Shown here piece by piece: positions 1-666 of a DNA stretch of 64,000 bases. Every line of letters begins with the position of its first letter. The stretch's first letter is position 1. Below the pieces are notes generated by a model that was not told the DNA's origin, did no database searches, and was given only the letters and a program-made list of their open reading frames with translations. The translations under genes and the position numbers were made by a program. Source of the DNA: Hydrogenophilales bacterium 16-61-112 (GTDB taxonomy: Bacteria; Pseudomonadota; Gammaproteobacteria; Burkholderiales; Thiobacillaceae); the NCBI GenBank assembly GCA_002257045.1, contig NCHD01000001.1, forward strand, positions 1 to 64,000, written 5' to 3'.

Positions 1-666
1 GACCGCATTGAAACCGGCACCTTTCTGGTTGCCGCAGCGATGACCGGCGGTCGTATCCGCGCCACCCACGCCCAGCCCGACACCCTGGTTTCGGTGATGG
101 GCAAGCTCGCCGACGCGGGCGCGCACGTGACCTCGGGCGACGACTGGATCGAAGTCGAGTCTGATGGCGTGCTGAACGCGGTCGACGTGCGCACCGCGCC
201 GCATCCCGCGTTTCCCACCGACATGCAGGCACAGTTCATGGCGCTGAACACCGTGGCCAGCGGCGCCGCCAGCGTCACCGAAACCATCTTCGAAAACCGC
301 TTCATGCACGTGCAGGAACTGCGTCGTTTGGGCGCCAATATCGAAGTCTCTGGCCACACTGCGCTGGTACGCGGCGTGCCGCGGCTCGACGGCGCCATCG
401 TCATGGCCACAGACTTGCGCGCCTCTGCCTGCCTGGTATTGGCCGGACTTGTTGCGGCAGGTGAAACTACCATCGAGCGCATTTACCACCTCGACCGCGG
501 CTATGAACGCATCGAGGAAAAGCTCACCCAATCGAGGAAAAGCTCACCCAGCTGGGTGCGCGCATCAAGCGGGTGCATTGAGAGATGGGCATCACACTCG
601 CCTTGTCCAAATGCCGCATCTTGGAGGGAGCCCTGTCGCTGCGGGCTACTTCCGGGCAAGGGATAA
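1..666 (+). CDS. murA: UDP-N-acetylglucosamine 1-carboxyvinyltransferase (MurA), 3' part, altered C-terminus
   Basis: MurA transfers enolpyruvate from PEP to UDP-GlcNAc, the first committed step of peptidoglycan synthesis, in the cytoplasm. The window opens inside the gene and shows the C-terminal half in frame from base 1, including [13 protein letters not shown], the [15 protein letters not shown] stretch and the family ending [12 protein letters not shown] 20-bp tandem duplication at 511-550 shifts the frame just before the normal end. The ancestral frame would finish LGARIKRVH with a stop at 579-581. The encoded frame instead runs about 28 foreign codons further, to 666. The tail may be tolerated because it lies beyond the conserved core. 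An assembly error is the main alternative. Identity is secure; the C-terminus is not. Confidence 0.9.
511..550. repeat. 20-bp perfect tandem duplication inside the 3' end of murA
   Basis: Bases 511-530 (atcgaggaaaagctcaccca) are repeated exactly at 531-550. Twenty bases is not a multiple of three, so the duplication puts murA out of frame for its last ten codons. Removing one copy restores the family-typical ending LGARIKRVH followed by TGA at 579-581. Confidence 0.95.
585..657 (+). pseudogene. Degenerate fragment of a hisG 5' end
   Basis: Four bases after the ancestral murA stop, an ATG opens the reading [18 protein letters not shown]. The intact hisG at 1629 begins with [18 protein letters not shown]. 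Similarity decays after about 20 codons. Most base differences are at third positions, so this looks like a diverged hisG start rather than a recent copy of the downstream gene. It probably marks where hisG once directly followed murA before the toxin-antitoxin pair arrived. It has no role as a gene now and lies inside the frameshifted murA tail. Confidence 0.75.

Follow-up and report, generated by a model that had tools for sequence, protein, structure and literature searches.

A 20-bp tandem repeat that puts the end of murA out of frame is probably a local assembly error

MurA proteins are described by the profile TIGR01072 and by structures such as 5bq2 and 1uae, and the in-frame part of the murA gene considered here fits positions 232–408 of the 416 in that profile. 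It differs from the described proteins in that, as the assembly is written, 44 unrelated residues take the place of its last nine, and in that ~88 codons from the middle of the gene are absent between two contigs. The other described phenomenon with which this locus can be compared is the local assembly or scaffolding error of metagenome assemblies. One account suspects local errors to be prominent in IDBA-UD assemblies, describes how duplicate sequence can persist where scaffolded flanks overlap, with Ns between the duplicates, and gives the overlap at contig ends as the largest k, or one less (PMC7111523); short regions scaffolded wrongly are described in another (PMC5079060). With the errors described there the locus shares a duplicate at an apparent join, frame-breaking losses in conserved genes, and contig-end overlaps of fixed length. 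It departs from the description in PMC7111523 in that the two copies in murA are directly adjacent.

In the 64-kb window (the whole stretch of DNA that was analyzed, from a Thiobacillus-like draft genome), positions 511–530 and 531–550 are identical 20-mers, head to tail with no spacer. The features discussed below are the following, where L004 denotes Thiobacillus sp. 65-1059, the closest named relative, and G007 a finished genome used for comparison.

1–531, + strand: 3' part of murA, in frame, corresponding to codons 232–408 of L004; the contig begins within the gene (TIGR01072, translation)
511–530, + strand: first copy of the 20-mer (exact repeat)
531–550, + strand: second, identical copy of the 20-mer, missing from relatives
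532–666, + strand: read-through tail of 44 residues plus stop (664–666), the product of the frame shift (translation)
551–581, + strand: normal murA ending LGARIKRVH plus stop, out of frame (comparison with relatives)
54011–56690, − strand: aconitase gene acnA in two frames, joined at 54366–54370, where 68 bp net are missing relative to G007; a second lesion on the murA contig

The frame at 1–666 is open from the contig start. It encodes MurA through ...IEEKLTQ and then 44 unrelated residues that end in LLPGKG and have no match to MurA models, and the final stretch LGAxIxRV expected of MurA is found only out of frame with the rest. Aligned to the window, L004, whose protein is 90% identical, has exactly one 20-mer fewer. 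Translation and this alignment bear out the initial annotation, which had reported an exact 20-bp tandem at this site and had claimed that it throws the end of murA out of frame, exchanging LGARIKRVH for a longer foreign tail. The in-frame part scores 239.5 bits against TIGR01072, under the whole-protein cut-off of 392.7, as a partial gene would be expected to do, and MurA is the best-matching function. A chance origin of the repeat was rejected, since 60 simulated 64-kb windows matched in third-order composition yielded no exact tandem of period 13–60.

We examined murA endings at 109 loci of relatives, made up of the best 80 of 589 contig matches and 29 same-genus loci (among which L004 and L098 probably represent a single contig counted twice). 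The genus search matched 46 of 56 genomes, the window's own included; 29 of the other 45 were used and 16 were not. A pattern for the ending matched 111 of 113 loci, the remaining two being aroA and a 5' fragment of murA. Single substitutions aside, the normal last stretch is kept in all 109 loci, a few of which have extra residues beyond it, and an exact tandem of period 15–60 at the murA end is present in none of them. The 20-mer junction, allowing up to three mismatches, occurs in the genome from which the window comes and in 0 of 116 other genomes of the family, by a pattern that would overlook duplications of a different unit. On these counts (0/109 loci, 0/116 genomes), the repeat was rejected as a trait shared with the relatives examined.

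The assembly, which is 94.35% complete, contains three matches to PF00275: aroA on contig C98 (443 bits, above its cut-off), the window itself (contig C89), and a 5' part of murA on contig C64. The last of these comprises codons 1–143 and sits at the extreme end of its 4,820-base contig. The window starts at the equivalent of L004 codon 232, which leaves the ~88 codons missing between C64 and C89. Because the two parts fit, and because the order on C64 (permease, BolA-like gene, murA) is also that of L004, we infer from sequence that they would belong to one and the same murA. The gene is hurt twice within ~0.8 kb of assembly, once by the contig break and once by the repeat.

The DNA just beyond murA has features of its own. 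Between murA and hisG, which is intact at 1629–2291, a two-gene module (671–970 and 967–1446) resembles MNT-HEPN (MntA-HepT) toxin-antitoxin pairs. Its first gene matches the PADLOC PDC-S09 models (E 1.3e-5), its second scores 19.5 bits against TIGR01987, below the cut-off of 55.8, and Pfam at 0.001 gave no match for the module genes. DNA like the module follows murA and is itself followed by hisG in four relatives (G052, G006, G035, and G038), and G040 has a partial match to the module 0.9 kb after murA. Immediately 3' of murA and ahead of the module, positions 582–655 are likely a remnant of the start of hisG: 60 of the 74 bases match the hisG start of L090, where hisG directly follows murA, and a comparison with the window's own hisG gives 44 matches in 59. 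Insertion of the module seems to have left this partial copy of hisG behind. By eye, the bases after murA in L086 and L087 read like a decayed hisG start, and those in L085 and L088 do not. The frame-shifted 44-residue tail runs across the remnant.

Tandem repeats were surveyed in the window and 46 further regions, which together make up 520,407 readable bases, or ~18% of the genome. In murA, the period of the repeat is 20 and so is its matching run, with no microhomology past the unit; a local error that duplicates sequence exactly where two pieces meet would be expected to look like this. No other exact tandem of at least 14 bp in the sample lacks microhomology; the remaining tandems with periods of at least 14 are intergenic or in frame. 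A 10-bp exact repeat in purM (contig C35, L151, 9543–9562; matching run 11) also lies at a frame change, with a downstream piece that matches TIGR00878 from position 13 and an upstream piece that, read by eye, is in another frame. Because exact tandems of period 10–12 also occur by chance (10 in the 60 simulated windows; three are present in the 520,407-base sample), the purM repeat is marked out by its frame change alone. There is no excess of tandems as such in this assembly compared with finished G007, which has its own, mostly heptamer arrays and an in-frame 30-mer, and the tandem count was accordingly rejected as proof of assembly error.

Frame changes in genes were then assessed. Open frames of at least 120 residues from 1.2 Mb of G007 served as the reference both for this sample and for 400 kb of a second finished genome, G002. 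Frame changes are seen in 13 of 139 matched genes here versus seven of 126 in G002. Of the 13, ten involve a net loss of 34–142 bp (the others being −1, +5, and +58), whereas those of G002 are −4, −2, −2, −1, +1, +14, and +116. Losses of at least 30 bp are found in 10/139 genes here versus 0/126 in G002 (p = 0.002, Fisher test), an excess over a finished genome of the kind expected of local error, measured against this single control. The loss count is approximate, in that a single contig (C14, L130) carries three of the ten and the identity in some comparisons is only 57%–62%, and selection by frame change finds non-triplet losses by construction. At a 65% identity cut the values are 7/126 versus 0/104 (p = 0.017); two of the ten losses overlap on opposite strands, and counting nine gives p = 0.004. 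Draft genomes in general may show such an excess, in which case it would not be specific to this assembly. Among the affected genes, the split in acnA is probably an assembly error, and an ABC-2 type permease gene that lies 0.8 kb upstream of the murA start (L114, C64 3564/3565) is missing 68 bp and is changed in frame.

We put the probability that the 20-bp duplication is a local assembly error, and not biology, at about 0.78. Two assembled pieces that shared a 20-base overlap at their ends within murA would have been placed end to end, and the overlap, left uncollapsed, would have caused the 20-mer to be written twice. Pieces parted by a short gap and joined in the same way would have had the gap dropped, and tens of bases lost with it. 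The murA of the living organism would then end normally. End-to-end joining, a mechanism that we infer, would explain both classes of lesion, a missed overlap accounting for an exact duplicate that lacks microhomology, and an unfilled gap for a loss. Some observations count against it. Ns are found neither between the two 20-mer copies nor inside the readable contigs, and the published description has Ns between duplicates (PMC7111523). Three sampled pairs of contigs that were left unjoined (L117/L126, L120/L152, and L130/L148) share end overlaps of exactly 99 bases, the mark of de Bruijn assembly at a k of about 100; 20 bp is unlike this final k, and was rejected as the final k-mer overlap, although an early k, or any overlap that was missed, could account for it. 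The deletions, moreover, differ in kind from the duplication, and only the model links the two.

A further point against a joining error is that a pure de Bruijn path would, by reasoning, require at least one read carrying the junction, and this leads to the main rival, a strain variant or chimeric read. A duplication from some cells or strains, or from one chimeric read, would have entered the consensus at low coverage or through strain differences, and most cells would have a normal murA. The break in murA 510 bp from the repeat, with its missing codons, is as poor or mixed coverage predicts. By itself, however, such an event leaves the excess of tens-of-base losses elsewhere in the assembly unexplained, and we regard it as unlikely. 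Less probable still is that the duplication is real and fixed, and that a MurA in which the 44-residue tail, read across the hisG remnant, stands in place of the final strand works well enough. Arg397 and the residues around 369–371, which we take to be active-site residues of MurA, lie upstream of the frame shift and are retained, and some relatives, e.g., L024 and L080, have extra residues past the normal ending. Those extensions, though, are added beyond the usual final residues, and the window has lost those residues. In the MurA sequences of 28 aligned relatives (L004 numbering), Arg415 of the lost stretch is invariant and Gly410, Ala411, and Ile413 are at least 90% conserved. Residues 412–416 form the last beta strand in a model of L004 MurA that has a mean pLDDT of 91.8; the L004 protein matches structure 5bq2 across residues 1–416. 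Judged from conservation and the predicted fold, the tail would likely cost MurA its function. It is also common to no relative examined, and murA is broken upstream as well in this assembly.

The initial annotation had offered a tolerated tail, a second murA, or a wrong assembly as the possible explanations, and nothing that we found supports the first of these. A second murA would allow the copy in the window to decay while another did the work, for which the frame shift itself, and nothing more, can be cited. No such gene was found by the PF00275 search of the 94.35%-complete assembly, where aroA is the sole other complete gene of the EPSP-synthase family and the remaining match is the 5' fragment; within the assembly, a second murA is rejected. 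The 530 bp ahead of the repeat also stay open and are 77%–91% identical to same-genus matches, and we give a decaying murA next to no credence. The wrong assembly is the option favored, because of the other frame-breaking lesions in the assembly and the contig break inside murA.

The biological weight of the murA repeat is small, and its value is one of caution. Until reads have been checked, the frame-broken murA, acnA, purM, and ABC permease genes seen here should be taken neither for lost genes nor for proteins with new tails, and in the compared sample the share of genes bearing losses is ten of 139. If the duplication is true, it would raise the question of how much change MurA can accept at its end, given the strong conservation of the stretch that has been removed.
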